Below are positions 1,705 to 29,688 of a stretch of DNA of 64,000 nt, in pieces. Position 1 is the stretch's first letter, and every line of letters begins with the position of its first letter. A program made the position numbers and the translations under genes. Source of the DNA: Dielma fastidiosa (GTDB taxonomy: Bacteria; Bacillota_I; Bacilli_A; Erysipelotrichales; Erysipelotrichaceae); assembly GCF_000313565.1 (NCBI RefSeq), contig NZ_HE578929.1, positions 69,275-133,274 of the forward strand, given 5' to 3'. The notes beneath the pieces are model-generated. The model made no database searches. It had not been told where the DNA came from and saw only the letters and a list, made by a program, of their open reading frames with translations.

Positions 1705-3419
<1,715 letters not shown>

Positions 3420-3429
3420 GGAGGATAAT

Positions 3430-4734: not shown

Positions 4735-4748
4735 AAGGAGAACGAGCG

Positions 4749-8100: not shown

Positions 8101-9572
8101 TGATCGTCCTCCTTAAACCAGTGACGCGGATCTACATCTTGAAATTTTGCTCTTTCAAAGCGCTGCTTCTGATTAAATGGAACGGTGCAGTCAAAAATGG
8201 CTTTGCATGCATTGCCGTGTTCTTTAAGCAATGGATTATAGACAGGATCATTGGAAGGATCAAGCGGATGGCATTGAATGCCAGGTAAAAGAATCAAATC
8301 ACGGTCAGCCTGAAAGCGGGTGGTCATGGCCCATAGGACATCATTCATATCAAAACAGTCAACATCTTCATCAACAAGGAAGACATGTTTTAATTCCGCG
8401 AATGCACTGAATGCCAGTAAGGCTGCTTGTCTGTGACGGCCCTCGTCAGAAGCGACTGACTTTTGGAACTGTAAAACAGCAATATATTTTCCGCCGCCGC
8501 TGGACGCGCAGTAAACATTTTTCAGTTTGCCGGGCATGGCTTTATCAACCATTTGCAGAATACTGGCTTCGGTTGGAATACCGGCCATTGAAACGTGTTC
8601 TTCGCTAGGCCCGATACATGTCTGCATAATGGGATTTTTACGGGTGGTAACCGCTTTTACTTTAATAACAGGCAATGAAGGATTGGCAGGACCGCAATAA
8701 CCGGGGAATTCCGGCATTGCCTTACCAGAGTTGCTATTTATATCCTCACGCATTCTAACTTTGGGCAGAATTTCACCTTCAATGACATATTCAGCATTGG
8801 CAATTGCTTTTTCATTAATTGTCAGACATTGGACTAATTCAACAGGCTTATTGCGGATCGCGCCTGCAATCTGCAGCTCATCATAACCAATAGGGGTGGT
8901 AGGCGGTTCAAAGCATGCCGTCACTTCGATGGCTGGATCAACACCGATACTGATTGATATCGGCAGCGGCTGCCCCTTTGCCTCAGCAAGCTCATGGAAA
9001 GCACCGATATGCCGTGCTCCCGGCTGCAGAAAAATGGTCATTTCATCTTTTGACTGAATACAGAGACGATGAATCGAAACATCTGATTCACCAGTGATTG
9101 GATTAGAGGCATAAGCCATTCCGAGGGTAATATAAGGCCCGGCATCTTCGATGCTGTTGGTGGATGCCGGAATCAGTTTCCGTAAATCAAAGTCATGTTC
9201 ATCCGCTCGGTACACAAGTGTTTGACATAAGGCTTCCGCCTGTGGAATAGTAATCGGTCTAACCGGCCTTTCAACGGCATTCTTTAATAAAAAGCCAAGC
9301 TTTTCGGGCTGACAGTTTAATAAATAGCCTACTCTTTTCCGGCTTGCTAAAAGGCCTATTGCAATACGTGCCTCAGGGTATCCTTTAATTCTATTAAAAA
9401 CAGCTGCCGGACCTTCCTTAGTTGGCCGCATGACTGTACCGCCGGCACCTATTTTCCGATATAAGCCAGCCAATTCATTCATTGGATCGATTTCTATATC
9501 AGTCTCAATGAATTGATTTTCCATGGTTTTTAATAAGTCCAAAGCTGATCGCAGATCGTTAATTTGATTCAT
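8097..9572 (-). CDS. UbiD-family (prenyl-FMN dependent) decarboxylase
   Basis: A 491-residue member of the UbiD family, which reversibly decarboxylates aromatic or alpha,beta-unsaturated acids. Family landmarks are the central GKAMPEFPGYCGPANPSLPV stretch, the metal and prenyl-FMN binding Glu/Asn/Arg region near residues 165-240, and the C-terminal VFLVDEDVDCFDMNDVLWAM motif. Together with UbiX and the small LpdD-like partner it resembles the non-oxidative hydroxybenzoate, vanillate or gallate decarboxylase sets of Bacillus and Lactobacillus (bsd/lpd). The exact substrate cannot be deduced. Confidence 0.9.
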   Translation of the reverse strand: MNQINDLRSALDLLKTMENQFIETDIEIDPMNELAGLYRKIGAGGTVMRPTKEGPAAVFNRIKGYPEARIAIGLLASRKRVGYLLNCQPEKLGFLLKNAVERPVRPITIPQAEALCQTLVYRADEHDFDLRKLIPASTNSIEDAGPYITLGMAYASNPITGESDVSIHRLCIQSKDEMTIFLQPGARHIGAFHELAEAKGQPLPISISIGVDPAIEVTACFEPPTTPIGYDELQIAGAIRNKPVELVQCLTINEKAIANAEYVIEGEILPKVRMREDINSNSGKAMPEFPGYCGPANPSLPVIKVKAVTTRKNPIMQTCIGPSEEHVSMAGIPTEASILQMVDKAMPGKLKNVYCASSGGGKYIAVLQFQKSVASDEGRHRQAALLAFSAFAELKHVFLVDEDVDCFDMNDVLWAMTTRFQADRDLILLPGIQCHPLDPSNDPVYNPLLKEHGNACKAIFDCTVPFNQKQRFERAKFQDVDPRHWFKEDDQ

Positions 9573-10040: not shown

Positions 10041-10907
10041 ATGACATTGGAACAGTTGCAGTATTTTGTTGTAATTGTAGAAACGGGAACTTTTTTAGGC
10101 GCGGCTGAGGAGCTGCATCTTTCTCAGTCCTCTCTATCAAAAAGTATTCAGCGCATGGAAAGAGAATTAAATGTTGTTTTATTTGACCGCAGCGGCCGCA
10201 GTGCGAGATTAACTGAGGCAGGTCATCAATTTTATAATGATGCCAAAAATGTTCTATCCGCATACACTCAATTGATCAGTAATTTGAATCAGATTAAAGA
10301 CAGTCATGAAAATACTTTAAAATTAGGATTGCTGCCCATTCAGGCAAGCTTTCGTATAGCCAGCAGATTAAAGCAATTCCGATCCGCATACCCCAAGCTT
10401 GATTTTCAAATTTATGAGTTAGAGGATGCTGCCCTGCTTGACAAGCTGCTGGATGGAACCTTGGACTTGGCGATTCTGCGCTCTGATTTCCCTCATCCTA
10501 AACTTAGCTACTTCTCCTTTGCATTAGATCATATGGTTTGCCTGCTGCCTAAACAGCATCCGCTTGCCGCTTTCAGTGCCATTTCTTTAACCCAGCTCAA
10601 ACCGGAAGCCTTTATTTTGATGCCGGCTTATACCGCAGTTACCAAAAGGGCTATGAGCGTATGTCAAAAGGCTGGTTATGTGCCGGAGCGGGTACGGTAT
10701 TGCCGGACTGAAAGCATCATCAGTTCTGTTGCTGAGGGGGAGGGGATTTCCTTATTGATGGAGTCAAACATTGAAGCCTTTTCGTTAAACAATGTGGTTA
10801 TCATGCCATTATTGGAGGCGGTTAGGGGAAGTGTTGCCTTTGCCTGTCTAAAAGAGAAGCCGCTGTCATTGCCTGCGAAGCGTCTGATTGAATTATTCAA
10901 AAAATAA
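10041..10907 (+). CDS. LysR-family transcriptional regulator
   Basis: A 288-residue regulator. The N-terminal winged HTH is clear (LEQLQYFVVIVETGTFLGAA, residues 3-22, then SQSSLSKSIQRMERELN), followed by a periplasmic-binding-like effector domain. It diverges from the UbiD operon, so it probably senses an aromatic acid and activates the decarboxylase genes, as known for bsdA and padR-independent systems. It ends at a strong terminator. Confidence 0.9.
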   Translation: MTLEQLQYFVVIVETGTFLGAAEELHLSQSSLSKSIQRMERELNVVLFDRSGRSARLTEAGHQFYNDAKNVLSAYTQLISNLNQIKDSHENTLKLGLLPIQASFRIASRLKQFRSAYPKLDFQIYELEDAALLDKLLDGTLDLAILRSDFPHPKLSYFSFALDHMVCLLPKQHPLAAFSAISLTQLKPEAFILMPAYTAVTKRAMSVCQKAGYVPERVRYCRTESIISSVAEGEGISLLMESNIEAFSLNNVVIMPLLEAVRGSVAFACLKEKPLSLPAKRLIELFKK

Positions 10908-11061: not shown

Positions 11062-11916
11062 ATGAAAGTAATATTTAGAGCAGATGATGTCGGTTATACG
11101 GATGTTCATAATTTAGGTACTTGGCAGGCAATTGAAAAAGGTATTGTTACGGCCTGCGATTTAATGCTTGATACACCAGGCTTTGAATCAGCGTGCAAAT
11201 ATTTGCGTAATTGTCCTTGGATTACGATTGGCTGGCATACGCATTTTTGGGGCAGACCCGTTCTTAAGCCAAGTGAAGTACCTTCAATGGTTGATGACGA
11301 GGGTAAATTCAAATGGCGGAAGGATAAAAAAGCATTGATGGAAGTCGATTATGAAGAAGCATTAAAAGAATGTCGGGCTCAGCTTCAGCGTTGCTATGAT
11401 TGGCTGGGAAGACTGCCGGATACATGCGGCGGCGCCCGCGGTCCGCTTGGTGATGCAATAAAAAAAGTTTGTGATGAAAATGGCATTGTTTATGATTTCG
11501 TGGGCGGCATCGGCTATGATGGCAAAGAAAAACAACCGGCTGAAAAATATCGCTCATTAAATATTAAAGAATGGATTGATTTAAGCGGCAAGCACCATAA
11601 ATCATTAAAAGTTACAGATTTTCCATATTATGATCCAGCTGGCGCAATCATGGAAATGCCGATTGATGAAGATGTAATATGGATGCGGTCACAGCACCCG
11701 GGTTATCTCGATGACTATGTATTAGCTGAATCAAGCTGTACGATTCCGCGGGTTAAAGATGTTGAGGCCTATTGTGATCCAAAAGTTAAGCAGTGGATCA
11801 TCGAAAATAAAATTGAACTGATTAATACTCATGATGCTCTTTATGGTACTAATCAGTATCAGGAACATTTAAAAGCGATCAATTCACCATTGTGGATTGG
11901 TAATATGAAGGCATAA
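11062..11916 (+). CDS. ChbG/YdjC-family carbohydrate deacetylase
   Basis: A 284-residue member of the ChbG/HpnK family (metal-dependent N-deacetylases of chito-disaccharides and related sugars). The metal Asp pair is in RADDVGYTD (residues 6-8), the first metal His in IGWHTHFWG and the family C-terminal motif in SQHPGYLDDY. The second HxH metal motif found in many homologues is not obvious (RLPDTCGGARGPLGD in that region). It has its own leader and is divided from the PTS operon by the regulator and a HAD gene, yet belongs to the same carbohydrate locus by content. Confidence 0.85.
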   Translation: MKVIFRADDVGYTDVHNLGTWQAIEKGIVTACDLMLDTPGFESACKYLRNCPWITIGWHTHFWGRPVLKPSEVPSMVDDEGKFKWRKDKKALMEVDYEEALKECRAQLQRCYDWLGRLPDTCGGARGPLGDAIKKVCDENGIVYDFVGGIGYDGKEKQPAEKYRSLNIKEWIDLSGKHHKSLKVTDFPYYDPAGAIMEMPIDEDVIWMRSQHPGYLDDYVLAESSCTIPRVKDVEAYCDPKVKQWIIENKIELINTHDALYGTNQYQEHLKAINSPLWIGNMKA

Positions 11917-11971: not shown

Positions 11972-12036
11972 AGGAGCAGTTATCCTGCTCCTGATTTAGA
12001 ATGATTTGTGTGAGTGATTTAAAGATCACTCTTTTT
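11972..12036 (+). terminator. Two hairpins ending the ChbG-like gene
   Basis: AGGAGCAG/CTGCTCCT (11972-11992) has no U-tract. GAGTGAT/ATCACTC (12012-12031) is followed by TTTTTAT and is the better terminator. The second one reaches the stop codon of the convergent regulator gene. Confidence 0.65.
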
Positions 12037-13942
12037 ATATTAGCAGATCAACGAAATCCTGACAGCAGCGGCAATGTGTTAATTTTCGGATAAAGGCTTT
12101 TTCCTGCAGCTTCTCAGAGAGAAAACTGATAATGTCGCCATAAGTGCTGAGGTATTCGTCAGCGGCTGATGCAAAAAGCAATATTACTTTCACGCTGTTG
12201 TTCCCCCATGCAATAGGTGCCTGTGATATCAGGATACTCAGCGAGGAAGCGGCTGCGTTTGAATTCATTGAATGCGGCACCGCGGCAATTCCGATGACGG
12301 TATCTGAAAGCTGCTCACGCTTTAAAACTTGCTGTTTAAAATCATCGCTTACACTGCCGTCTTTAATCAGCGGCTGAATCATTAAATCAAGTGCTGCATC
12401 ACGATCAGGTATTCCCGCTGGGTCTAAATAAAAATATTCATCTTTCATTAAATGAATGCAGTTATTCTTCAGTTTAGATTTATGCTTCTCCTTGCGTATG
12501 TCATCAATTGTGCGGTAAATAATTTTTCGATCCTGATCACTCTTGATTGGACTGATTAATAGAAAGGGAATCTTTAAATCATAATGATTTAATTTAGAAG
12601 TAGAAATAATTAAATCATAGGGTTCAAGATCCAATTCAGAATCCAGATGAGAGATACAGTTAGACGTAATGTATTTATCAAACTGATCACTGTAAAACTG
12701 ATAGAGATCTTGATTGATATTGTAATAATTTGGTAAGACAAACAGCACTTTCAATTTACTGTTGTGACTCTTTTTATTTTCAAAAATACTGCCGATATAT
12801 AATGCTAAATAAGCGATTTCGTCTTCACTTACAATAATCGGATAATTATATTGAATTGTGTTTGCGATATAAACGGCACAGTCATAAATTGCCGGATGCC
12901 GATATTTTATATCTTTCAGATAAGGGTTCTTAATACTGATTGTGGCTGTCAGCCGGTGTATCAGTGAACGGATATGAAGCGCGAAATTCACAAAATTGTC
13001 AGCATCGTCATAAAGATCAATGTTATAGAAATGCTTCATATTATCGGCTACCTGAATCACGAGATTGTAACAGCCGGCCCATAAATTTTCTTTTAGATTA
13101 TCGATGGTGATTTCTGAACGGTCATTATTGACGACAATCGCCGCCATAAGCAGTGCAATCTGCATGATTTCAATTTCAGGGAAGCTGATCTGAAAGGCTT
13201 TGGATAATTTGGCGCAGATTTCTCTGGCAATCGTAAAATTATGATTTCTGACAAATTTTAAGTATAGCTCTCTATCTAAAATATGATTATGTGAAATACG
13301 ATTCATTGCTATGCCTATATGATAGAGCGTATTAAGAAAAGCATAATCAGACATCGTATAATGATATTTAGCGATGATTTCTGAGAGAATAGTCTGAATT
13401 TTATTAAAATCATAACCAGGAAATGCGGCTTGAATGGTTTCCAGATTATAGACATTTTGATCGGCGTCATTGAATAAAGTTGAGAATAAGAATTCACGCT
13501 TTTTTTGTTCAGGACCGCTGATCGTTGCCGTGTTGTAGTTAAAGCTGATTGTCAGCTCATAGGCTTCAACCATTTCTTTTATCTTATATAAATCAGAACG
13601 AATCGTTGTTTCGCTGTAATACAGCTCATAACCGATGTTGGTAATATTGATGCTGTCACGGGTGCCTGTCAGCAGCTGCAGAATAATATAGCTGATTCGC
13701 TCTGACGGTTCCGCAGATACGATGGTTGGAAAGTCATCGATGATTTGAGACAACAGCTCGTTATTAATGTAATATCCCTTATTGTTTGATAGAATCAAGG
13801 TTGGATAAGTTTCGTTAATTTTTTTTACATAGCTGATGATCGAACGTTTGGATACTTGAAGACAGTCGGCCAGATAATTAGATGATGAAACTTTTTGATC
13901 GTTAAGTAATTCAATTAAATCAACCTGTGTTTTATTTAGCAT
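12035..13942 (-). CDS. PRD regulator with C-terminal EIIA domain (BglG/LicR type)
   Basis: A 635-residue multi-domain regulator. Order: N-terminal HTH (LIELLNDQKVSSSNYLADCL), a second HTH near 80-120, two PRDs (about 170-390), an EIIB-like segment (KLKVLFVLPNYYN) and an EIIA-type domain whose phosphorylatable His lies in IGIAAVPHSMNS. It would sense PTS phosphorylation and control the mannose-family PTS operon across the HAD gene. The frame opens at TTG 13963, but AGGAGG is 9 bp before ATG at 13942, so I take that start. There is no AAA+ sigma-54 activator domain, so it is not LevR-like. Confidence 0.85.
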   Translation of the reverse strand: MLNKTQVDLIELLNDQKVSSSNYLADCLQVSKRSIISYVKKINETYPTLILSNNKGYYINNELLSQIIDDFPTIVSAEPSERISYIILQLLTGTRDSINITNIGYELYYSETTIRSDLYKIKEMVEAYELTISFNYNTATISGPEQKKREFLFSTLFNDADQNVYNLETIQAAFPGYDFNKIQTILSEIIAKYHYTMSDYAFLNTLYHIGIAMNRISHNHILDRELYLKFVRNHNFTIAREICAKLSKAFQISFPEIEIMQIALLMAAIVVNNDRSEITIDNLKENLWAGCYNLVIQVADNMKHFYNIDLYDDADNFVNFALHIRSLIHRLTATISIKNPYLKDIKYRHPAIYDCAVYIANTIQYNYPIIVSEDEIAYLALYIGSIFENKKSHNSKLKVLFVLPNYYNINQDLYQFYSDQFDKYITSNCISHLDSELDLEPYDLIISTSKLNHYDLKIPFLLISPIKSDQDRKIIYRTIDDIRKEKHKSKLKNNCIHLMKDEYFYLDPAGIPDRDAALDLMIQPLIKDGSVSDDFKQQVLKREQLSDTVIGIAAVPHSMNSNAAASSLSILISQAPIAWGNNSVKVILLFASAADEYLSTYGDIISFLSEKLQEKAFIRKLTHCRCCQDFVDLLI

Positions 13943-14029
13943 CCTATCGATCCTCCTAATCAAATTGTAGCAAAGCGCTGATATGATGTCAATGCGGCCA
14001 GCTGCTGTGCGTTATTGGCAAAAAGCCTA

Positions 14030-14845
14030 TTAACGATTTAAAATATGCTTTTCAACATAGTCAGCCCAGCCATCCTCATCAGCGGCTTTCTCAGAAATGA
14101 AGTCGGCAGCTGCTTTTGCGTCTTCAGAGCCATTCAGCATGCAAACCCCTATACCGGCAGCCTGCAGCATACTGATATCATTGGTCATATCACCAAAACA
14201 GCAGACTTGTTGTAAATCAATATCATGTCTTGAACAGAAGCGCTTCAGCATGCTGCCTTTTGAAGCTTCCGCATTACAGAATTCAAACATTGTATTTTCC
14301 GTTTTAAAGCCCTTGAATGCTTGTGACGGAAATTTGGCGGCACGTTTTTCAATTGCGGGCATATCTTCTGCTTTAACTCGAAAGCCAACCTTAAAAGCGG
14401 GTCCCTGCCAGAATTCAGCGTCATCCTTAACGATATGTACTTGATGGTCATTTTTTATATAAGCAGAGGAGGCGGCAACATTCTTATCATAATTGCGCAC
14501 ATAGCTGATGCCGTCTCTGCGCAGGGTAGGATTGCAGTCAAAGGGTGCCATAATTTCAAAGCAGGCTTTAATCCATGCAGGTTCCATAAAATAGAGCTGT
14601 TCGCTGAAATCGTCCAAACCATCATATAGTTCAGAACCATTCAAGCCGATTATGACATCACAGCGGATATTCCAAGATGTTTCAAGCCGATGCAGCTGAC
14701 TGATTGACCTGCCGGAGGCGAGACCAAATAAAATCTCGCTTTTTTTTAATTGGTGAATGGCTTGTACAGCCCGTTCACTTAAATCTTGATGCTTAGGCAC
14801 CAGTGTATTGTCAATATCACAGAGTATCAATTTTATTTTTTCCAT
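14030..14845 (-). CDS. Cof-type HAD-superfamily sugar-phosphatase
   Basis: A 271-residue cytosolic phosphatase of HAD class IIB. Motif I is ILCDIDNTLVP (nucleophile Asp near residue 10), motif II GLASGRS, and motifs III/IV are KGSMLKRF and CFGDMTNDISML. Such enzymes dephosphorylate sugar phosphates. It is divergent from the mannose-type PTS operon and may relieve sugar-phosphate stress or act in the pathway; this is inferred from position. Confidence 0.85.
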   Translation of the reverse strand: MEKIKLILCDIDNTLVPKHQDLSERAVQAIHQLKKSEILFGLASGRSISQLHRLETSWNIRCDVIIGLNGSELYDGLDDFSEQLYFMEPAWIKACFEIMAPFDCNPTLRRDGISYVRNYDKNVAASSAYIKNDHQVHIVKDDAEFWQGPAFKVGFRVKAEDMPAIEKRAAKFPSQAFKGFKTENTMFEFCNAEASKGSMLKRFCSRHDIDLQQVCCFGDMTNDISMLQAAGIGVCMLNGSEDAKAAADFISEKAADEDGWADYVEKHILNR

Positions 14846-14987: not shown

Positions 14988-15015
14988 TTGAAAGCGCTTT
15001 TTTAACCGTTACAAT
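14988..15015 (+). promoter_or_regulatory. Promoter with overlapping cre site for the mannose-family PTS operon
   Basis: TTGAAA at 14988-14993, a 16-bp spacer and TACAAT at 15010-15015. The sequence TGAAAGCGCTTTTT (14989-15002) fits the CcpA cre consensus at 13 of 14 positions and covers the -35 and spacer, the geometry of carbon-catabolite repression. Confidence 0.65.
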
Positions 15016-15105
15016 ATAGCCAACAAGTTAAGGAGGAATGTGTTGAGAATTAATTAGGGATTTGTTTAAGCCTGAACATTAAAAAACAGAGAGGAGTGGA
15101 TGATA

Positions 15106-15897
15106 ATGTTGCAAGGTGCGCTTATTTGCGTTTTTGTTTTTTGGATATCAAATGTATTGCAGAAAGTATTTTTAATAAATATTTCTTATTCTCCTATTTG
15201 CTTGTGTACACTGTTGGGACTCTTAGTCGGCAAGCCAACCGAGGGATTGGTAATGGGCGGCTATCTGCAGGCAATTTTCTTAGGTGTAATGGCGATTGGC
15301 GGTGTAGCACCGGCAAATAAACAATTAGGTTCAATTATTCCATGTGCCTTCGTCTTATTGGGCGGTATGGAATTAGAAGCCGGTTTAGCAATCGCTTATA
15401 CGATTGGTGTTCTCAGTAATAGTATTAATCAATTGGCTAATACAATATTTGCTGCTTCTGAACCATGGTGGAAAAATTTGGCTTTAAAGGCAAATGCAAA
15501 AAGCTATTCCATGGCTCACTGGGTATGGTTTTTAGTAATCAGTATGCTTCCGTCAGCGCTTATCATTTTCTTCAGTGTTGCTTTCGGTACTGAAGTTGTA
15601 GCTAATTTAGTTAATTTGCTGCCGGCAAAATTCATGACGGGCTTAAGTGTTGCTTCTAACTGTATGACTGCAGTTGGTATTGCTATCGCGTTAAAGATGA
15701 CATGGCAGACAAAATTTGCCGGTTTCTTCTTCCTTGGCTGGATTTTAGCTTATGTAATTGGTTTAACACAGATCCAATGCGCGATCGTTGCAGTAGCAAT
15801 CGGTGCGATTTGGTACTTTATCTCAGCTGATCTTGATAAGAAGATTAAATTGAATCAATCGGCAGGCAGTGTGAATCGAGGAGGTGACTTTTTCTAA
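15106..15897 (+). CDS. PTS mannose/sorbose-family EIIC
   Basis: Membrane permease subunit, 263 residues, with the family stretch LLVGKPTEGLVMGGYLQAIF and several further hydrophobic segments. ATG at 15100 is in frame, but GGAG ends only 3 bp before it and lies 9 bp from ATG 15106, so the latter is favoured. The stop and the EIID start share one base (TAATG). With EIID it forms the transmembrane unit of a mannose-family permease. Confidence 0.9.
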   Translation: MLQGALICVFVFWISNVLQKVFLINISYSPICLCTLLGLLVGKPTEGLVMGGYLQAIFLGVMAIGGVAPANKQLGSIIPCAFVLLGGMELEAGLAIAYTIGVLSNSINQLANTIFAASEPWWKNLALKANAKSYSMAHWVWFLVISMLPSALIIFFSVAFGTEVVANLVNLLPAKFMTGLSVASNCMTAVGIAIALKMTWQTKFAGFFFLGWILAYVIGLTQIQCAIVAVAIGAIWYFISADLDKKIKLNQSAGSVNRGGDFF

Positions 15898-16721
15898 TGG
15901 CTAAGAATAATTTAACAAAAGAAGATAAAAAGGTAATGTGGAACCTATTCTGGCGTTCTAATCTGATTATGGGTTCCAACAATCCAGTTGTTATGGGCGG
16001 ACATGGTGTTTTATTTACTGTTGCGCCATATTTAGAAGAGTTCTACAAAGATGATGAAGCAGAAAAAGTTGCTGCTTTTGATCGTCATAGTGTCTATTAC
16101 AATACAAATCCATATACTGGTGCGATTGTTTGGGCATTGATTTATATTATGGAGAAAAAACGCAGTCTGAATAAGACAGCGGTAAGCGGTGAATCAATTC
16201 AGAATATGAAGATTGCCTTGATGGGGCCTTTAGCCGCAATTGGTGATACACTTTTCCAGGGTTCTATCGGTATCATTATTGCCGCCATGGTCATGGGTAT
16301 GGCTCAGGAAGGAAATTTCCTGGCGCCGATTATATATTTAGGCTTATTCTTAATTCTGTTTGCCGGCGGTAAATGGCTGTTCTTAAGAATCACTTATGTT
16401 AAGGGTGAAGAATTTGTTACAGAGCTGCTGCAGACGGATATGTTTGACCGCATGGAAGAGGTTATTTCAATTGCCGGTTTGATGATGATGGGCTGTCTGA
16501 CTGCGACAACAATTAGATTTAATTTTAACTGGGTCATCAATTTTGGCGGTGTTGAAACAGATTTCCAAACTGCTTTCTTAGATGCATTGCTGCCAGGCTT
16601 ACTTCCATTGGTAATATTGTTTACATGCTTTGGCTTGTTAAATAAGAAGGTCACACCAACTAAATTGATTTATGGCATCATGGTTGTCTGTATCATTTTC
16701 GCTTATTTAGGAATTGTTTAA
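15897..16721 (+). CDS. PTS mannose/sorbose-family EIID
   Basis: A 274-residue partner of EIIC. The family landmarks are visible: an N-terminal amphipathic part (VMWNLFWRSNLIMGSN), YNTNPYTGAIVWALI, and MGPLAAIGDTLFQGS in the middle, with C-terminal membrane helices ending in LIYGIMVVCIIFAYLGIV. It is tightly coupled to EIIC and separated from EIIB by 71 bp that contain an 11-bp hairpin. Confidence 0.92.
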   Translation: MAKNNLTKEDKKVMWNLFWRSNLIMGSNNPVVMGGHGVLFTVAPYLEEFYKDDEAEKVAAFDRHSVYYNTNPYTGAIVWALIYIMEKKRSLNKTAVSGESIQNMKIALMGPLAAIGDTLFQGSIGIIIAAMVMGMAQEGNFLAPIIYLGLFLILFAGGKWLFLRITYVKGEEFVTELLQTDMFDRMEEVISIAGLMMMGCLTATTIRFNFNWVINFGGVETDFQTAFLDALLPGLLPLVILFTCFGLLNKKVTPTKLIYGIMVVCIIFAYLGIV

Positions 16722-16728
16722 TCAGCAC

Positions 16729-16760
16729 ATGAGTAAGCCGTGATTCCATGGCTTACTCAT
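16729..16760 (+). repeat. Perfect 11-bp stem between EIID and EIIB
   Basis: ATGAGTAAGCC (16729-16739) pairs perfectly with GGCTTACTCAT (16750-16760). The following TCTGCTC has no U-tract, so this is not a good terminator. It may stabilise the upstream mRNA 3' end or set the membrane:soluble subunit ratio. Confidence 0.6.
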
Positions 16761-16792
16761 TCTGCTCATAGAAAGAAAAGAGGGAAAATATT

Positions 16793-17284
16793 ATGATCGA
16801 TTTACTTCGTTTAGATGAAAGATTAATACATGGACAAATTGCTGCGGCATGGGTGAAAACGCTGCCGGTAGATACCTTGCTGGTTATTGATGATACGAGT
16901 GCTACCGACCCATTTCTGACCAAAACGCTTTATATGGCTTCGCCGGCAAATATTAAAACTTTTGTTATGACTAATGAGGAAGCGTTAAAAGTATTAAATG
17001 ATCCGCGCTGTGCTGATCGGCATATTTTTGTGGTTGTCAGAACGATTGACACGCTTTTGAATATTGCTGAAAATGCCAAGGATGTTAAAGAAATCAATGT
17101 ATCAAATTATGGCCGGCTGGTAACGAGCGGTAAGGAGAGAAAAGGGTATACGGATCATTTGTTCCTCGATGATGATGAAGCTGTTAACTTGAAAAAAGTT
17201 CTTGCTTTTGATATCCCTGCTTTCATGCAGATGACGCCTTCACAGCCTAAAACACCGTTGACAAATATATTGAAAAATGTCTGA
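16793..17284 (+). CDS. PTS mannose/sorbose-family EIIB
   Basis: A 163-residue soluble phosphocarrier. The N-terminal LRLDERLIHGQIAAAWVK motif contains the phosphorylated His14. The rest (VIDDTSATDPFLTKTLYMAS) fits the ManX-B/LevE fold. A good Shine-Dalgarno site (AGAGGG) precedes ATG. The stop overlaps the start of the next gene by 8 bp. Confidence 0.92.
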   Translation: MIDLLRLDERLIHGQIAAAWVKTLPVDTLLVIDDTSATDPFLTKTLYMASPANIKTFVMTNEEALKVLNDPRCADRHIFVVVRTIDTLLNIAENAKDVKEINVSNYGRLVTSGKERKGYTDHLFLDDDEAVNLKKVLAFDIPAFMQMTPSQPKTPLTNILKNV

Positions 17285-18194
17285 TATTGAGAATCGTTTA
17301 GAGGAACAGCTGCTTCAATATACGTATTATTATGGCATCAGAAATTCCAATAAAGATAAGCAAAGATGCTATTCGTATATTGAAAGTAAATTTGCGAAAG
17401 AATTTGGTTTAGATGTGAAGTTTGATAAGCTTTCAGTAGGTATCAGCAAGATTGGTTTATGTATTGCCGGCAATTTGGATAAAGCTGATAAAATCTTGAT
17501 TGCGCCTTTGGATACACCGCGTAAATCTTATTATAAACAGTACAGCTATTATCCTTTTAATGAAAAGAAAAGTGATCGAAATCATATGCTGGCTGCATTG
17601 ATTAATGGCAGTATCGGCGTTTTGTTGACAGCGGCTGTCTGTTGGCTTGTCTATTTGCTTTTTAAGCAATTTTGGCTTTCCTGTATTTGTGCTTTCGTAA
17701 GCTTTTTACTCTATTTGTATTCGCTGCGCAATATTTTTAATTTCAGCAGCAGTGCGCCGCTCGCGCTTTTCACTTATATTGCGGCACATCGAAGGAAAGA
17801 TGAACAAATTGCTTATGTGTTTTTAGATCACAGTGCTCAGAATTATCTGAGTTTGAAGCTGTTTCTGGTTAAATATAAAAAGCAGTGCGAACGTGCTGAT
17901 GCGGTTATTTATTTTAATAATTTAGCACATGGTCAGCATTTGGTTTCAGCCTATAAAGAGCTGGATAAGAATAAAAGTCAATTCATTGAGGCATGTGAGG
18001 CAGAGGGCTTAAAGATTGAAGACGAGGGTGTGCTGCATTGTTTTGAGAGCTCTTCAAAGCTGATGATTATGACTGCTGCTGAACGCGATCAAAGCAATGA
18101 GTATTATGTAAAGGATATTCGCAGCCGCCGGGATAAAACCGTTGATGTTAAACGGTTAAAGCGTATTGGCGATTTATTGATTAAGACAGCTTAG
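17277..18194 (+). CDS. Membrane protein with degenerate M28-peptidase-like features
   Basis: A 305-residue protein that I cannot name with certainty. The N-terminal part (GIRNSNKDKQRCYSYIESK, then KILIAPLDTPRK) recalls the start of an M28 zinc aminopeptidase, where ..HxDTP would be expected, but the metal His is absent. Two hydrophobic helices (about 110-155: INGSIGVLLTAAVCWLVYLL and FWLSCICAFVSFLLYLYSL) interrupt the fold, and the later part (AYVFLDHSAQNYLS, DAVIYFNNLAHGQHL) has the rhythm of the M28 core without clear metal ligands. It starts inside the EIIB stop and is thus part of the PTS operon. It may be a non-catalytic membrane accessory of the permease. Confidence 0.6.
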   Translation: MSDIENRLEEQLLQYTYYYGIRNSNKDKQRCYSYIESKFAKEFGLDVKFDKLSVGISKIGLCIAGNLDKADKILIAPLDTPRKSYYKQYSYYPFNEKKSDRNHMLAALINGSIGVLLTAAVCWLVYLLFKQFWLSCICAFVSFLLYLYSLRNIFNFSSSAPLALFTYIAAHRRKDEQIAYVFLDHSAQNYLSLKLFLVKYKKQCERADAVIYFNNLAHGQHLVSAYKELDKNKSQFIEACEAEGLKIEDEGVLHCFESSSKLMIMTAAERDQSNEYYVKDIRSRRDKTVDVKRLKRIGDLLIKTA

Positions 18195-18215
18195 CTGTAA
18201 ATTGAAGGAGAATTT

Positions 18216-19055
18216 ATGAAGATAAAAGAAGTAATTGAGCGGCTGTGCGAATGGCATCAGCCCTTTATTGAACATGAAGGCGGCCGTGATAAGATATTAT
18301 GTGGTGATGCTGATCAGGAATGCAGCGGCATAGCGATAACGGTATGCGCTACCTTTGAGGTATTAAAAAAAGCCAAGGAACAAAATATTAACCTGATCAT
18401 CACTCATGAATCTATCTTTTTCGGCGGTCGTGTTGATGCTGATGAGCTTGCTGACAATGACGTTTATCAGGCAAAGCTTAATTATATTAAGGAAAATAAT
18501 TTAGTGATTTGGCGTGATCATGATCATATTCACGGCAATGGCAAGCCTTTCTATCCGGAAAGAAAGAATCCGGATTATATATTCTATGGAATATGTAAGG
18601 AACTGGGCTGGGACGATTATGTGGTAGGTGATAAGCTGAAGCCGCTTTGGTATAAGATTCCTAAGATTAAGGCTGCTGATTTAGCTGATTTTATTATGGC
18701 TAAATTTAATCTTCAAGGGATGCGGATTGTCGGTAACTTGGATCAGGATATATCTACGGTATGGTTTGCGGAACATGTCATGGGCAGCAAGACTGACGGT
18801 GAGAAAATCAAAAGCGGCTTAAAGGCAGATGTAATCATCCCTTTTGAAATTTGTGATTATACATTAACGCAGTATGTTCATGACGCGGCTTATCTGAATC
18901 AGGCAAAGGTTTTGTTTGAAATGGGACATTTTAATTGTGAAGAATTAGGTATGAAATATATGCTTCAATGGCTGCCGGAAGCTTTGCAGGAAGAAATACC
19001 AATGGTATTTATTCAATCAGGTGATTATTTTCACTATTTAGAGAGGGTATTATGA
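18216..19055 (+). CDS. Nif3-like dinuclear metal-centre protein (DUF34)
   Basis: A 279-residue Nif3-family protein. Metal-binding motifs are LIITHESIFFGG (first His) and WRDHDHIHGNG (Asp/His), with late residues in FEMGHFNCEELGMKYMLQWL. Biochemical roles of the family are poorly defined; some members are annotated as GTP cyclohydrolase or metal-chaperone-like. Being embedded in a PTS operon, between an unknown membrane protein and EIIA, suggests an enzyme acting on the imported sugar phosphate. It overlaps the EIIA start by 4 bp. Confidence 0.8.
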   Translation: MKIKEVIERLCEWHQPFIEHEGGRDKILCGDADQECSGIAITVCATFEVLKKAKEQNINLIITHESIFFGGRVDADELADNDVYQAKLNYIKENNLVIWRDHDHIHGNGKPFYPERKNPDYIFYGICKELGWDDYVVGDKLKPLWYKIPKIKAADLADFIMAKFNLQGMRIVGNLDQDISTVWFAEHVMGSKTDGEKIKSGLKADVIIPFEICDYTLTQYVHDAAYLNQAKVLFEMGHFNCEELGMKYMLQWLPEALQEEIPMVFIQSGDYFHYLERVL

Positions 19056-19468
19056 CAAAAATATTTTTAGCAACACATGGCCGTATGGCCAGCGGTATGA
19101 AATCATCGATTGATTTATTAATGGGCAGCAGTGAAGCACTTACTGTTTTCGATGCGTATCTGCCAGGTGTAACAGTTTCAGTCGGCGAGCAGGCGGCACA
19201 GTTTCTGGCGCAGTGTGAACCCTCAGAGACTAAGCTTTTGGTGTCCGATATGCTGGGCGGCAGTGTAAATCAAGAACTGATGAAATATTCAGATCTGGAG
19301 AATGTTTTTGTGATTACGGGGATAACACTTACCTTGCTTTTAGAGTTATTGTGTCAGTGTCATCAAAACTTCACCGCATCCCAGCTGGATGAGCTTATCG
19401 AAAACAGCCGATTAATGACGCAGCGAGTTTCTTTAGATGTGAATAGTTCGCAGGATCAGTTTTTCTAA
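19052..19468 (+). CDS. PTS mannose-family EIIA
   Basis: A 138-residue cytosolic phosphocarrier. The active-site His9 lies in IFLATHGRMASGM, and LLVSDMLGGSVNQELM is the second family motif. The start overlaps the Nif3-like stop by 4 bp. It completes the IIA-IIB-IIC-IID set as four separate proteins, in an unusual order with IIA after the two accessory genes. Confidence 0.9.
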   Translation: MTKIFLATHGRMASGMKSSIDLLMGSSEALTVFDAYLPGVTVSVGEQAAQFLAQCEPSETKLLVSDMLGGSVNQELMKYSDLENVFVITGITLTLLLELLCQCHQNFTASQLDELIENSRLMTQRVSLDVNSSQDQFF

Positions 19469-19494
19469 CAGCGGTTGATAAACCGGGAGGTAAT

Positions 19495-20295
19495 ATGAAA
19501 TTATTAGTACAAGGTGATGATTTTGGCTTTACGCGGGGTGTGACCTACGGCATTATTGATTCCATTGATCATGGCATCTTAAGAAATACAGGGCTGTTTG
19601 CTAATATGCCTTCGGCAGCATTAGCCGTCAGCTTTATGAAGGCGCGTCCCCATGTTTGTTTTGGCATCGATTTTAATATTGTGTCAGGTCCATGCTGCGC
19701 CGATCCGTTGCTGATTCCGCATTTAGTAGATCATGACGGTAATTTTATCAGAAGCAGTGTCCGCGTTAAAGATCCGCGTTATAAAAGTGAAGAAGGCCGC
19801 CGGGAAATGTTCCCCATTGAAGAATGCTATATTGAGATGAAAGCGCAGTATGAGCGTTTTATCGAAATGAGCGGTCAAAAACCGGGGTATCTTCATTCAC
19901 ATTCCATTGGACCGGAGCCCTATTTAGAAACCATTCAGCGTTTAGAGCAGGAGACGGGTATTTTCTATTCACGTACGATCAGAAAGCAAATGAATGTCGG
20001 CAGTATTCCTTATCAGCGCAGCAGTGATGGCGTACCTAAAAAGGAATTTGACGCGGGCGGTCAATTAGCGAAAGATAAAGTACAGAATGTGCTTGATCAC
20101 AGTGATCTGCTGCTTTCTTATGATATTGCTGCGATTGGCGGCCATCCGGGTTATGTTGATGCCGATTTGCTGAGTTTGACGACCTTATCTTTAGAACGTT
20201 TACGGGATGCTGAAATGTGTATGTCACCGATTATTAAGCAATGGATTGATGATCATAATATTGAATTGATAACGTATTATGATTTAAAAAAATAA
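19495..20295 (+). CDS. ChbG/YdjC-family deacetylase, operon copy 1
   Basis: A 266-residue family member with the metal Asp pair in VQGDDFGFTRG (residues 7-8), HSHSIGPEPY for the second metal motif and GGHPGYVDAD near the C-terminus. The position usually held by the first metal His (GxHxxL) is Asp here (CFGIDFNIVSG), a change shared with the next gene. It follows the PTS EIIA and would be expected to remove an acetyl group from an imported phosphorylated amino sugar; the product pathway is not in the window. Confidence 0.85.
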   Translation: MKLLVQGDDFGFTRGVTYGIIDSIDHGILRNTGLFANMPSAALAVSFMKARPHVCFGIDFNIVSGPCCADPLLIPHLVDHDGNFIRSSVRVKDPRYKSEEGRREMFPIEECYIEMKAQYERFIEMSGQKPGYLHSHSIGPEPYLETIQRLEQETGIFYSRTIRKQMNVGSIPYQRSSDGVPKKEFDAGGQLAKDKVQNVLDHSDLLLSYDIAAIGGHPGYVDADLLSLTTLSLERLRDAEMCMSPIIKQWIDDHNIELITYYDLKK

Positions 20296-20313
20296 CTATC
20301 TGGAGGTGAATGG

Positions 20314-21147
20314 ATGAAATTATTGGTACAGGGTGATGATTTTGGTTTTACGAGGGCTGTTACTTATGGAATTTTGGATGCGATTGAAAATGGTATCTTG
20401 AATTGTACCGGATTGTTTGTAAATATGCCAAGCAGTGCTTGGGCGGCAAAACAGATTGCTGCGCATCCGCAAACTTGTTTTGGTCTTGATTTTAATATCA
20501 CATCCGGAAAATGTGTTGCCAATCCCCAATTAATTCCGCATTTAGTTGATGCTGACGGTGAATTTATCCGTTCAACTGTGAAGTATGCCGATCCGCTCTT
20601 CATGGCTGATCAGGGCAGGGATGTTTTATGGCCTTATGATGAAGTGATGATTGAGCTGGAGGCCCAGTTTCAAAAATATGTTGAATTAGCGGGCAGTCAG
20701 CCTGAATATGTTCATACACACTCGATTGGCAGAACTGTGCCAAGCTATGCCAAAGCCGTATCAGATATTGGCAGAGTGCATGGTGTCTGTATGGCCAAAG
20801 AGATGCGGGAGCATTTTGGCTTTGCGGATCTGCATAAAACATGGACGCCGATGGGCAAGCGGCCTAAAAAAGTATTTGATATTGAAAAACAGCTGAATAA
20901 AGATACATTAGGGACAGTCATTGCTAATCGTGATGAGCTGCTTCAATATGAATATGCGGCCTTAGATGGTCATCCTGGTTATGTGGATGCAGAATTGATT
21001 GCTGATTCAACGGTTTCAATTGAACGGCTGCGGGATGTTGAGATGATGATGTCACCGGTGATGAAGGATTGGATCAAGGAACATCATGTTGAGATGGTTA
21101 CCTATCGTGATCTGAAAAAGCGGATGGCAATGAATCAAAGTGAATAA
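20314..21147 (+). CDS. ChbG/YdjC-family deacetylase, operon copy 2
   Basis: A 277-residue paralogue of the preceding gene, alike over its whole length (VQGDDFGFTRAVTYGI, CFGLDFNITSG, VHTHSIGRT, LDGHPGYVDAE). It keeps the same Asp-for-His replacement. The tandem pair probably arose by duplication and may have different sugar specificities. It is the last gene of the operon; a strong terminator follows 20 bp later, and a short in-frame-looking ORF across that terminator was rejected. Confidence 0.85.
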   Translation: MKLLVQGDDFGFTRAVTYGILDAIENGILNCTGLFVNMPSSAWAAKQIAAHPQTCFGLDFNITSGKCVANPQLIPHLVDADGEFIRSTVKYADPLFMADQGRDVLWPYDEVMIELEAQFQKYVELAGSQPEYVHTHSIGRTVPSYAKAVSDIGRVHGVCMAKEMREHFGFADLHKTWTPMGKRPKKVFDIEKQLNKDTLGTVIANRDELLQYEYAALDGHPGYVDAELIADSTVSIERLRDVEMMMSPVMKDWIKEHHVEMVTYRDLKKRMAMNQSE

Positions 21148-21167
21148 GCATTTGAATAGAGTATCAG

Positions 21168-21195
21168 CGCACTTTATCGAAAGTGCGTTTTTCTT
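21168..21195 (+). terminator. Terminator of the mannose-family PTS operon
   Basis: CGCACTTT pairs perfectly with AAAGTGCG around ATCG, followed by TTTTTCTT. Confidence 0.88.
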
Positions 21196-21329: not shown

Positions 21330-21358
21330 TTGAATGCAAACGCTTTCAATGCTATAAT
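21330..21358 (+). promoter_or_regulatory. Promoter with embedded cre site for the GlpA-like operon
   Basis: TTGAAT at 21330-21335, a 17-bp spacer and TATAAT at 21353-21358. TGCAAACGCTTTCA (21335-21348) fits the cre consensus at 13 of 14 positions and lies inside the promoter, predicting CcpA repression. Confidence 0.72.
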
Positions 21359-21430
21359 TATATATAGAAAAAACGAGCAGCTTGTTTGCATAAAAGCACT
21401 TATCGGTGCTTTTTCGGTTATGGAGGACTT

Positions 21431-22861
21431 ATGGAAGATATTGTCATTATTGGCGGCGGCGTTATCGGAACCCTGATTGCTTATGCCTGTTCGAGATATA
21501 ATTGTAATGTAACCTTGATTGAGAAGGAAAATGATGTGGCTAACAGTACGAGTATGGCTAACAGCGCCATCATTCATGCCGGCTATGATCCGCGTGATAA
21601 TACATTAAAAGCGGCGATGAATTTACGGGGCGCGCAGCTTTATCCAACTTTATGCAGGGAATTAAAGGTTGACTATAAACAGGTCGGCAGTTTAGTTGTG
21701 GCAATGAATGATGAACAATGCGCCGCATTGGCTGAATTAAAGGCGCGTGCGGATCAAAGGGGCATCGTTGTTTCATTGATTGATGGGGATGAAGCAAGAG
21801 CGTTGGAGAGTCATTTGTCAAAGCGGGTCGTTCAGGCCTTATTTTGTGAATCAACAGCGATTGTCACACCTTGGAAGATTGCTATTGCGGCGATGGAAAC
21901 AGCGATGGGCAATGGAACGCGGTTATTGCTGAATGAAGAGGTTAAAGCTATCACCAAGCTTGCTGATGGCTATGAGGTAGAGTCAGCAACACAAAAAATT
22001 AAAACACGGATGGTAATCAACTGCGCCGGCTTGTATGCAGATCGTATCAGTGCGATGGTGAATGGGCAGGCACACTTTAAAATCAATCCTAAAAAGGGTG
22101 AATATTTTGTCTTAAGCAAACGCTGTCATGAGCTGATAAAGCATGTGCTTTATCCGGTGCCGACGGCCAAAGGCAAGGGGGTGCTGGCGGTGCCGACGGT
22201 TCACGGCAATGTCCTGTTAGGTCCTAACGCAGCGGTACATGATGATTGTGATGATGTTGCCACTACCTCGATGGGCTTGGCTGAGGTGCTGGAAAAAATA
22301 AGTGAGATGCTGGATGAGGTGCCGGCCTCTGAAATCATTCACAGTTTCAGCGGCAATCGGCCGACAACGGCAGAGGATGATTTTATTATTGAAGAAAGCT
22401 GTCCGCATTTTATTGATGTGGCGGGTATTGATTCACCAGGCTTAGCGAGTGCGCCGGCGATCGCAGAAAAGGTGATGAAGGAGTTTGTGCTGCCGGCATT
22501 TGATTTACAGCCGCGTTCAATATTGAAGCATCGTCAGAAAAATGTCGTGCTGTCAGAATGCAGTGAAGAAGAGAAGAAGCAGTACATTGCTCATAATCCG
22601 CGTTATGGTGAAATCATATGCCGCTGTGAACAAGTATCAGCTCAGGAAATTATTGATTGTATTAAACGCAGCTGCGGTGCCCGCAGTGTGGTTGGTGTTA
22701 AGAAACGGGTTCGTCCGGGCATGGGGGATTGTCAGGGCGGCTTTTGTGAACCATTGGTTGTAAGACTGCTGTCGGAAACATTAAAGATACCGATGGAGGA
22801 GGTTGACTATAATCAAAAGGGTTCACATATCTTATATAAAATGACAAAGGGGGAACGCTGA
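21431..22861 (+). CDS. FAD-dependent glycerol-3-phosphate dehydrogenase-like protein with BFD-type [2Fe-2S] domain
   Basis: A 476-residue flavoprotein. Residues 3-30 are a dinucleotide-binding fold (IVIIGGGVIGTLIAYAC); the middle resembles GlpA/LhgO oxidoreductases (MANSAIIHAGYDPRDNTLKA). The C-terminal 100 residues hold a BFD-like cluster domain with CRCEQVS and GMGDCQGGFC. ATG at 21431 follows TGGAGGA; the frame extends 45 bp upstream without a better site. The start of the next gene overlaps the stop. This gene, the next and the DUF1667 gene form a trio known in clostridia and spirochaetes, thought to oxidise glycerol-3-phosphate. Confidence 0.85.
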   Translation: MEDIVIIGGGVIGTLIAYACSRYNCNVTLIEKENDVANSTSMANSAIIHAGYDPRDNTLKAAMNLRGAQLYPTLCRELKVDYKQVGSLVVAMNDEQCAALAELKARADQRGIVVSLIDGDEARALESHLSKRVVQALFCESTAIVTPWKIAIAAMETAMGNGTRLLLNEEVKAITKLADGYEVESATQKIKTRMVINCAGLYADRISAMVNGQAHFKINPKKGEYFVLSKRCHELIKHVLYPVPTAKGKGVLAVPTVHGNVLLGPNAAVHDDCDDVATTSMGLAEVLEKISEMLDEVPASEIIHSFSGNRPTTAEDDFIIEESCPHFIDVAGIDSPGLASAPAIAEKVMKEFVLPAFDLQPRSILKHRQKNVVLSECSEEEKKQYIAHNPRYGEIICRCEQVSAQEIIDCIKRSCGARSVVGVKKRVRPGMGDCQGGFCEPLVVRLLSETLKIPMEEVDYNQKGSHILYKMTKGER

Positions 22862-24114
22862 TGAAAACTTGTGATTGTCTGATTGTCGGCGGCGGCTCAG
22901 CGGCGCTGGCGTGTGCGTTATCGCTTTATCAGCAGGGGATTCATGATGTTGTAATTGTCGAGCGTGACAATACGCTTGGCGGTGTATTGAATCAGTGCAT
23001 TCATAACGGTTTTGGACTTCAGGTTTTTAAAGCTGAACTGACCGGGCCGCAGTATGCCCAGCGATACATTGATCTTTTAAAGCGAATCAGTATTACTGTT
23101 TATTCTCAGGCGACGGTTTTATCCTTGGATGAAACAAAAACCGCCATGATTTTAAGTAAAAAAGAAGGGTATATAAAGCTTCAGGCAAAAGCGGTCGTCA
23201 TGGCTTCGGGCTGCCGAGAACGCTCACGCGGTTCAATCTCTATTCCAGGTGATCGCTGCTGCGGCATCATGAGTGCCGGCACTGCCCAGCATTATTTGAA
23301 TCTTGACGGCTACCTGCCTGGTAAAGATGTATTTATTTTAGGCAGCGGCGATATTGGCCTGATCATGGCGCGGCGTATGACCTTAGAAGGGGCGGCTGTC
23401 CATGGCGTGGCGGAAATAATGCCTTATTCCAATGGCTTAAAAAGAAATATTGTCCAATGTCTAGAGGACTTTAATATTCCATTGTATCTGAGTACGACAG
23501 TCATTAAAACGATTGGGCGGAACCGGCTTGAAAAGATTGTGCTGGCAAAGGTAGATGAAAATCTGAAACCGATTGCCGGCAGTGAGTGGGAAGTTGAATG
23601 TGACTGTCTGCTGCTGTCAGTCGGGCTTATTCCCGAACTGCGTTTATTCGACGATTTGCCGATCATTCAAGATCCGGCTACAAAGAGCGCACGTGTTAAT
23701 GAGAGCTATGAAACAAATCTGCCCGGCTTCTTTGTCTGCGGCAACGCTTTGCATGTGCATGATCTGGTAGATTTTGTCAGCCGTGAAGCGGAACAGTGCG
23801 GACGTTTTGTGGCTCGTTATCTGAAAAATCAGCTGCATGAGGGCGCGGCGGTGGATTGCATCGCTTTAAATAATATCACTGCGTTAGTTCCGCAATGTCT
23901 GCGTGTGGAAAATATTAATCAGGAAGTTGAATTTACTTTCCGGGTACGGCGGCCGATGAAAAATTGTGAATTAGTTATTGTTAAGAATGGCGAGGAATTA
24001 CGGCGAATCCGCAAGCGAATCGTGCTGCCGGCGGAAATGGAAACCGTCAGACTCAGTGCTAAGGAGCTGAAAGGATTAACCAGTCTGAGCTTTGAAATGA
24101 GGGAATGCGAATGA
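22861..24114 (+). CDS. FAD/NAD-dependent pyridine nucleotide-disulfide-type oxidoreductase
   Basis: A 417-residue flavoprotein. The FAD-binding motif CLIVGGGSAALACAL is at the N-terminus, a second dinucleotide motif (FILGSGDIGLIMARRM) is near residues 157-172, and the end of the FAD fold appears as NLPGFFVCGNAL near 285. It shares one base with the upstream dehydrogenase (TGATG) and overlaps the DUF1667 gene by 4 bp. In this gene order it is expected to pass electrons between NAD(P)H and the GlpA-like partner. Confidence 0.85.
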   Translation: MKTCDCLIVGGGSAALACALSLYQQGIHDVVIVERDNTLGGVLNQCIHNGFGLQVFKAELTGPQYAQRYIDLLKRISITVYSQATVLSLDETKTAMILSKKEGYIKLQAKAVVMASGCRERSRGSISIPGDRCCGIMSAGTAQHYLNLDGYLPGKDVFILGSGDIGLIMARRMTLEGAAVHGVAEIMPYSNGLKRNIVQCLEDFNIPLYLSTTVIKTIGRNRLEKIVLAKVDENLKPIAGSEWEVECDCLLLSVGLIPELRLFDDLPIIQDPATKSARVNESYETNLPGFFVCGNALHVHDLVDFVSREAEQCGRFVARYLKNQLHEGAAVDCIALNNITALVPQCLRVENINQEVEFTFRVRRPMKNCELVIVKNGEELRRIRKRIVLPAEMETVRLSAKELKGLTSLSFEMRECE

Positions 24115-24485
24115 AAAAAGAAATGACTTGTATCGTATGTCCGATGGGCTGTCAGCTGCAGCTGGATATTGATGATGCGACATTAAAATTAAGCGTCAGC
24201 GGCAATAATTGCCCGCGGGGTATTAAATACGCGCATGAGGAGCTGACAAATCCTAAGCGGACACTGACAACAACAGTGCTGCTTGAAAGGGCTGAACTGA
24301 CAAGGCTGCCGGTAGTTACGGATGGCCCGATTCCTAAAGGCAAGCTAATGGAAGCGATGCAGGTGCTGAACCGCCTGCGGGTGAAGGCGCCGGTTCATGT
24401 CAATGACATCCTTGTGAAAAATATCTGTCAAAGCGGTGTCAATGTGATTGCCTCGCGTACCGTCACCCGTATCAGTAATAAATAA
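24111..24485 (+). CDS. DUF1667 cysteine-rich protein
   Basis: A 124-residue protein with an N-terminal CIVCPMGCQL cluster and a further Cys in NNCPRGIKYA, consistent with an iron-sulfur or metal site. This is the DUF1667 pattern that travels with the two flavoproteins upstream. A frame start exists at 24105, but ATG 24111 overlaps the upstream stop (ATGA) behind GAGGGA and is preferred. The function is unknown; an electron-transfer subunit of the trio is the natural guess. Confidence 0.8.
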   Translation: MKKEMTCIVCPMGCQLQLDIDDATLKLSVSGNNCPRGIKYAHEELTNPKRTLTTTVLLERAELTRLPVVTDGPIPKGKLMEAMQVLNRLRVKAPVHVNDILVKNICQSGVNVIASRTVTRISNK

Positions 24486-29530: not shown

Positions 29531-29655
29531 GCGAATGGTTTTCTCTTTTTCATAAATTTATCCAGTGATTTTAGGATTCTTGCGTAAACCTATCAGTTAC
29601 TTGCTTTTTTCTAAAAAAAACAGTCGTTAGAGTTTAAAAAAGCAGGGGGGTGGAG

Positions 29656-29661
29656 TATAAT
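29656..29661 (+). promoter_or_regulatory. Candidate -10 element of the nagA gene
   Basis: TATAAT at 29656-29661 with TTTAAA 17 bp upstream, then AAGGAGG at 29677-29683 for the ATG at 29689. The -35 is poor, suggesting activation or a weak promoter. Confidence 0.4.
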
Positions 29662-29688
29662 AAAACCATCAATACAAGGAGGTTACTT

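Follow-up and report, generated by a model that had tools for sequence, protein, structure and literature searches.

The described systems closest to the locus examined here are the enterobacterial chb operon (ChbBCARFG), the aga operon for N-acetylgalactosamine (GalNAc), and a Streptococcus cluster whose mannose-family phosphotransferase system (PTS) imports and phosphorylates an unsaturated hyaluronan disaccharide containing an amino sugar, as the abstract of that study reports (PMC6837340). The locus lies in a 64,000-nucleotide stretch of the Dielma fastidiosa genome (assembly GCF_000313565.1, contig NZ_HE578929.1, positions 69,275 to 133,274; hereafter the window), where an eight-gene operon at positions 15100-21147 joins a mannose-family PTS to two YdjC/ChbG-like proteins, a NIF3-like protein, and a membrane-type protein with the fold of M28 peptidases. 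A ChbG/YdjC protein paired with a mannose-family PTS was not found described in the open-access literature, subscription journals lying outside the coverage. The operon is a conserved unit, and the most informative new fact about the locus is an exchange of residues in the metal site of its two ChbG-like proteins.

An earlier note on this DNA, made from the sequence alone, had proposed eight tightly coupled genes between 15106 and 21147. Translation and scans with Pfam and NCBIfam confirm the proposed gene order, with 15100 a better start for IIC than 15106. All eight genes are on the + strand and are listed below, where D-type and H-type denote ChbG-like proteins with aspartate or histidine, respectively, at the position of the zinc ligand His61 of described ChbG.

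15100-15897, + strand: mannose-family PTS IIC (Pfam EII-Sor, 163 bits; best NCBIfam match AgaW, below its cut-off)
15897-16721, + strand: mannose-family PTS IID (Pfam, 238 bits)
16793-17284, + strand: mannose-family PTS IIB (Pfam, 120 bits; motif DERLIHGQ)
17277-18194, + strand: M28/glutaminyl-cyclase-fold protein with a two-helix membrane-type insertion (AlphaFold2 model and fold comparison)
18216-19055, + strand: NIF3/DUF34-like protein of a mannose-PTS-linked subfamily (Pfam, 60.8 bits; cut-off 23.4)
19052-19468, + strand: mannose-family PTS IIA (Pfam, 31 bits; NCBIfam AgaF, 53 bits, below its cut-off; motif THGRMASG)
19495-20295, + strand: ChbG1, a D-type YdjC/ChbG-like protein (Pfam YdjC, 115 bits; D59 and H134 replace H61 and D123)
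20314-21147, + strand: ChbG2, a second D-type YdjC/ChbG-like protein (above the YdjC cut-off of Pfam; below that of NCBIfam NF002559)

The tight coupling holds: neighbouring genes overlap (IIC and IID by 1 bp, IIB and the M28-fold gene by 8 bp, NIF3 and IIA by 4 bp) or are separated by gaps of 71 bp (IID to IIB), 21 bp (M28-fold to NIF3), 26 bp (IIA to ChbG1), and 18 bp (ChbG1 to ChbG2). The claimed pairing of ChbG with a mannose-family PTS and no glycosidase is likewise borne out. IIA, IIB, IIC, and IID are all present, each above its Pfam cut-off, and neither the translated reading frames nor the family scans revealed a glycosidase gene within 15100-21147. The motifs THGxxASG in IIA and DxRLIHGQ in IIB are the phospho-histidine motifs known from the family; because they are conserved here, phosphate would be relayed by IIA and IIB to the sugar during its import through IIC and IID.

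A comparison of gene neighbourhoods, which the earlier note had suggested as a check, clearly identifies the operon as a conserved unit and not a chance cluster. First, eight of the nine YdjC genes in the D. fastidiosa genome have an EIID gene no more than 5 kb away, against 0.69 expected; two of the eight are the operon genes, one is the gene at 11062, and five belong to further independent loci. The corresponding count is 7 of 18 in the family's other genera (0.71 expected) and 0 of 42 in the rest of the class. Second, a metagenome-assembled genome of the Lachnospiraceae (L116) carries the same kinds of gene in nearly identical order, namely IIC-IID-IIB-M28-ChbG(D)-NIF3-IIA-ChbG(H). The 3.6-Mb D. 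fastidiosa genome is unusually rich in EIID genes of mannose-family PTS, with 29, the next highest number among the 36 genomes counted being 14.

A ChbG alignment scanned against 84,980 species genomes yielded 74 loci. Another Lachnospiraceae metagenome-assembled genome (L114) has IID-IIB-M28-ChbG-NIF3, the IIC side being cut or rearranged, and its ChbG is 71% identical to ChbG2. Within the family of Dielma, L221 resembles the locus described here and reads ChbG(H)-ChbG(H)-392-PRDreg-PRDreg-IIC-IID-IIB-IIA-M28-NIF3. The commoner layout is regulator-IIA-IIB-IIC-IID-(M28)-ChbG-NagA, seen in Holdemania filiformis (L129), H. massiliensis (L130), and Anaerorhabdus furcosa (L134), and, with no adjacent regulator, in three Chloroflexota loci (L125, L137, and L142). 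The wider form reg-IIA-IIB-IIC-IID-M28-ChbG-NagA is shared by Holdemania, Anaerorhabdus, and Pelolinea.

The chemistry of ChbG has been described for the Klebsiella enzyme, in which zinc is held by D11, H61, and H125, D10 is the proposed base and H206 the acid, and the H61A variant is inactive (PMC9402603). ChbG1 belongs to the YdjC/ChbG family both by sequence and by predicted fold: its AlphaFold2 model, with a predicted local distance difference test score (pLDDT) of 94.8, matches 2i5i at Z 26.2 and 7vi8 at Z 25.1, and the next family follows at Z 14. In the alignment, the counterparts of D11, H61, H125, D10, and H206 are D9, D59, H136, D8, and H217, and that of D123 is H134. ChbG1 thus keeps the equivalents of D10, D11, H125, H206, and R223, and ChbG2 has the same active-site residues apart from their numbering (base D8, acid H220). 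The zinc triad is therefore incomplete in both proteins, which have aspartate at the position of H61. Across 40 D-type sequences, D8, D9, H136, H217, and R235 show little or no variation, and the second exchanged position is histidine in most D-type rows and Asn, Gln, Thr, or Gly in some. A tree of 96 proteins, computed without the two exchanged columns, separates the D-type (69 rows) from the H-type (26 rows) by a single branch with support 90; the D-type proteins were gathered with patterns containing the aspartate, so the set does not gauge the subfamily's share of the whole family.

These residues bear directly on how the two proteins should be named. The earlier note had called them deacetylases on the strength of the family name, and this assignment is not supported in that form. 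Against the NCBIfam equivalog for the chitooligosaccharide deacetylase ChbG (NF002559, cut-off 227), the two proteins score 94.5 and 99.6 bits. Canonical ChbG activity by family name was not accepted, and neither activity, metal, nor substrate can be transferred to the operon pair, because the essential H61 is aspartate in both, with an offsetting change of D123 to histidine. Most simply, the two would be working enzymes whose metal site has been rebuilt: the observed exchange would let His134 substitute for His61 of ChbG and Asp59 for Asp123.

The protein encoded at 17277-18194 received no family name from the sequence libraries scanned, Pfam and NCBIfam among them. Its AlphaFold2 model (pLDDT 90.7) aligns over about 220-240 residues with M28 aminopeptidases and glutaminyl cyclases (Z 19-21) and carries two long inserted helices (96-129 and 132-149). 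Of the earlier description as an M28-like membrane protein, the fold stands and the peptidase sense does not: the motifs HxD, DNxSG, and EE are replaced by PLDT, NFSSSAP, and DHSAQN, at positions set by eye on the alignment rather than from coordinates. An active M28 peptidase is rejected for lack of these metal-ligand motifs, as judged from sequence motifs and not from structure coordinates. The 29 homologues are degenerate as well, mostly with YDTP and NRNS and without EE. Among 24 PTS-linked or ChbG-linked copies, which include a few duplicate genomes, the M28-fold gene directly adjoins IID in 15 and IIB in 5. Because IID or IIB is thus the neighbour in 20 of 24 copies, the protein most likely lacks catalytic activity and partners either the permease or the enzymes. 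Homologues in four PTS-free loci (L043, L046, L047, and L048) adjoin a conserved protein of ~512 residues and a patatin-like protein of ~285 residues, a second conserved context.

For the DUF34/NIF3 family, a survey has proposed metal insertase or chaperone functions, and its main text mentions no link to a PTS or to sugars (PMC8469502). The nearest solved structure to the operon's NIF3-like protein is PDB 9g9u (105 bits), for which the literature search found no paper. The first metal motif is HE instead of HH, the C-terminal motif is retained as GHFNCEE (GHFNxEE), and RDHDHIH offers possible other ligands. A protein search blind to gene neighbours detected the subfamily in 85 of the 244 genomes from the bacterial family of Dielma; of 18 loci inspected, picked on similarity only, 13 are mannose-family PTS clusters. 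The protein may act on the imported sugar as a hydrolase, or it may handle metal. In-frame stops in many NIF3 matches of one genus (g3) raised the possibility of recoding or pseudogenes, which was rejected when eight of them, re-read, proved to be normal terminal stops. As a separate observation, proteins of ~400 residues resembling the neutral ceramidase N-terminal domain (PF04734) recur in NIF3/mannose-family PTS clusters (L042, L085, L088, L222-L225, L229, L232, L235, and L236).

What the PTS imports can be approached through the genes that accompany it. The earlier note had proposed an N-acetylated sugar, and for this the support is indirect, the substrate being unproved. Two sister clusters in the D. 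fastidiosa genome encode NagA-like proteins that keep the catalytic motifs and score 197-207 bits, against a NagA cut-off of 225.65, and most relatives' clusters also add a NagA-like deacetylase. These neighbours point indirectly to N-acetylated amino sugars for the wider cluster class. Whether the operon itself serves such a sugar, or a conjugate of one, with D-type ChbG enzymes that actively process it, is in our judgement evenly balanced. Several observations weigh against it. The operon has no NagA or AgaA gene, and the nearest NagA (29650-30828; 305.7 bits, over the curated cut-off) lies in the same window but is not linked to it. The PTS specificity matches, AgaW and AgaF, fall far under their cut-offs, and 5 of the 18 NIF3 loci are outside PTS clusters. 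The D-type proteins have aspartate where the loss of H61 inactivates canonical ChbG (PMC9402603). Finally, D-type ChbG is not restricted to mannose-family PTS, as it also adjoins Lac-family PTS, GH1-like, carboxylesterase-like, sulfatase-like, or ABC-transporter genes (L145, L156, L094, L126, L127, and L148), the first four names coming from reading the sequences and not from family scans.

With such varied neighbours, ChbG1 and ChbG2 may instead act on O-acyl groups or have some other activity. The cargo of the PTS would then be an O-acylated sugar or a decorated glycoside from plants or the diet; the D-type proteins would be O-deacylases or another kind of hydrolase rather than N-deacetylases. 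The Lac-family PTS, GH1-like, carboxylesterase-like, and sulfatase-like genes at L145, L156, L094, L127, and L126 favour this explanation, as do the altered metal site, which could mean altered chemistry, and the many kinds of hydrolase in the wider PTS class (PF04734 ceramidase-like, metallo-β-lactamase (MBL), and HAD). We nevertheless consider it unlikely, although well short of negligible: the N-deacetylase's base and acid are both retained, and NagA-like proteins, of the N-acetyl-sugar-phosphate deacetylase family, are the most constant enzyme partner of ChbG in mannose-family PTS clusters. More doubtful still is the proposal that the D-type proteins have no enzymatic activity and serve as sensors or carriers by binding the phosphorylated sugar, much as the M28-fold protein appears to have lost its activity. 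The essential ligand His61 is missing from all D-type rows and the same operon encodes that second degenerate protein, but a compensating His134 is present in most D-type rows and dead enzymes would not be expected to hold D8, D9, H136, H217, and R235 (nearly) invariant. A chance cluster, for which the 29 EIID genes make some adjacency expected, is refuted almost beyond doubt by 8 of 9 and 7 of 18 adjacencies where ~0.7 would be expected and by the same gene set in a different bacterial family (L116).

The conserved locus appears to extend upstream of the eight genes, and in this respect also the extent given by the earlier note was too short, since a third YdjC gene, a regulator, and a phosphatase were missed. 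The upstream genes and the putative control signals are as follows.

11062-11916, + strand: ChbG0, an H-type YdjC/ChbG-like protein (GWHTHF; Pfam, 96 bits)
12035-13963, - strand: PRD-domain regulator with a C-terminal PTS EIIA-2 domain (Pfam PRD, 105 bits; EIIA_2, 67 bits)
14030-14845, - strand: HAD (Cof-type) sugar-phosphate phosphatase-like protein (Pfam Hydrolase_3, 159 bits)
14988-15015, + strand: promoter-like site TTGAAA-16-TACAAT (10/12 matches)
14989-15002, + strand: site resembling a catabolite-responsive element (cre), TGAAAGCGCTTTTT (2 mismatches to the 14-base consensus; overlaps the -35 hexamer)
21166-21189, + strand: intrinsic-terminator-like hairpin 3' of the last gene (10 pairs, T-rich tail)

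The three genes are counted in the locus because in other genomes counterparts of them occur with the PTS: PRD regulators also precede the PTS in L221, and HAD genes adjoin NIF3 in L088, L222, L223, and L235. ChbG0, which retains H59 but has no counterpart of His125, is 71% identical to the final gene of the L116 operon. Promoter-like sites occur about as often as in shuffled sequences (22 found, 21.9 expected), so position is what supports the site at 14988-15015. The control by cre that the earlier note had claimed is probable. The cre-like site overlaps the promoter-like site; with two mismatches it is weak alone, whereas for the class of related PTS runs the case is strong, since 21 of 83 upstream regions (several loci duplicating one another) contain a cre-like site with at most one mismatch, against 1.6% of random 300-base stretches.

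Other features of the window were noted in passing. A perfect cre-like site, TGCAAACGCTTTCA, lies just 5' of a glycerol-3-phosphate dehydrogenase-like operon (region 21335-24485), whose genes were read at 21386-22861, 22861-24114, and 24105-24485. A second sugar operon at 1705-5054, with a small IIA-like, a GH1-like, a IIC-like (434 residues), and a IIB-like protein, apparently combines a Lac-family PTS with a phospho-glycosidase. UbiD-like (8097-9572) and UbiX-like (7531-8100) decarboxylase genes on the - strand, with a small third gene, were read from the sequence and not scanned; they adjoin a LysR-type regulator (10041-10907), also read from the sequence.

These elements can be assembled into a provisional pathway. 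An operon controlled by CcpA and by the PRD regulator would take up and process an acylated sugar; the likeliest candidates are N-acetylated amino sugars and small conjugates of them. Once inside the cytoplasm, the phosphorylated sugar would lose an acyl group by hydrolysis at the rearranged metal site of ChbG1 and ChbG2, and the product would be completed by enzymes encoded elsewhere, such as the NagA at 29650-30828. The M28-fold protein, its catalytic motifs lost, would assist the permease or the enzymes, and the NIF3-like protein, with its partial metal site, would probably have a hydrolase or metal-handling role in the same pathway. More broadly, we tentatively propose, while rating it somewhat improbable as a whole, that the locus is one example of a recurring type of mannose-family PTS operon, as yet uncharacterised, with a sugar outside the known PTS pathways, a ChbG subfamily with a rebuilt site, a NIF3 protein dedicated to the PTS, and a dead M28-fold partner of the permease. 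Three orphan or misannotated families would thereby become testable parts of one sugar pathway. A subfamily of NIF3/DUF34, a family of unsettled function, would be placed in sugar metabolism; the D-type ChbG proteins, which databases would label chitin disaccharide deacetylases despite a missing catalytic ligand, could be reassessed; and the M28-fold membrane protein, unnamed by family libraries, would gain a context. Related clusters are present in named species (Holdemania filiformis, H. massiliensis, Anaerorhabdus furcosa, and Pelolinea submarina), which makes growth and enzyme tests practical.

Set against the known systems, the locus resembles each in part. Like chb, it combines a PTS with a YdjC/ChbG protein, which in chb works on the phosphorylated sugar; however, chb has a Lac-family PTS, the phospho-glycosidase ChbF, and a ChbG with the zinc ligand His61, whereas here the PTS is of the mannose family, no glycosidase is present, and the operon pair has aspartate at that position. 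The aga operon, with its GalNAc PTS, AgaA deacetylase, and AgaS, shares the mannose-family IIA, IIB, IIC, and IID and an N-acetyl-sugar-phosphate deacetylase, which here is NagA-like and encoded in the sister clusters; the present operon differs in lacking AgaA/NagA and AgaS, in its ChbG-like, NIF3-like, and M28-fold genes, and in a PTS far under the AgaW and AgaF cut-offs. The streptococcal hyaluronan-disaccharide PTS offers a precedent for mannose-family import of an amino-sugar disaccharide, although it is partnered by an unsaturated glucuronyl hydrolase and the abstract mentions no ChbG, NIF3, or M28-fold gene (PMC6837340). The NIF3-like protein shares with YbgI, SA1388, and YqfO the Pfam family and the H and E of the C-terminal metal motif (GHFNxEE), but departs from them in its first motif, HE rather than HH, and in the tie of its subfamily to mannose-family PTS. 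The M28-fold protein, in turn, has the predicted fold of M28 aminopeptidases and glutaminyl cyclases, yet differs from them in having lost the metal-ligand motifs, in its two long inserted helices, and in its place among PTS genes.

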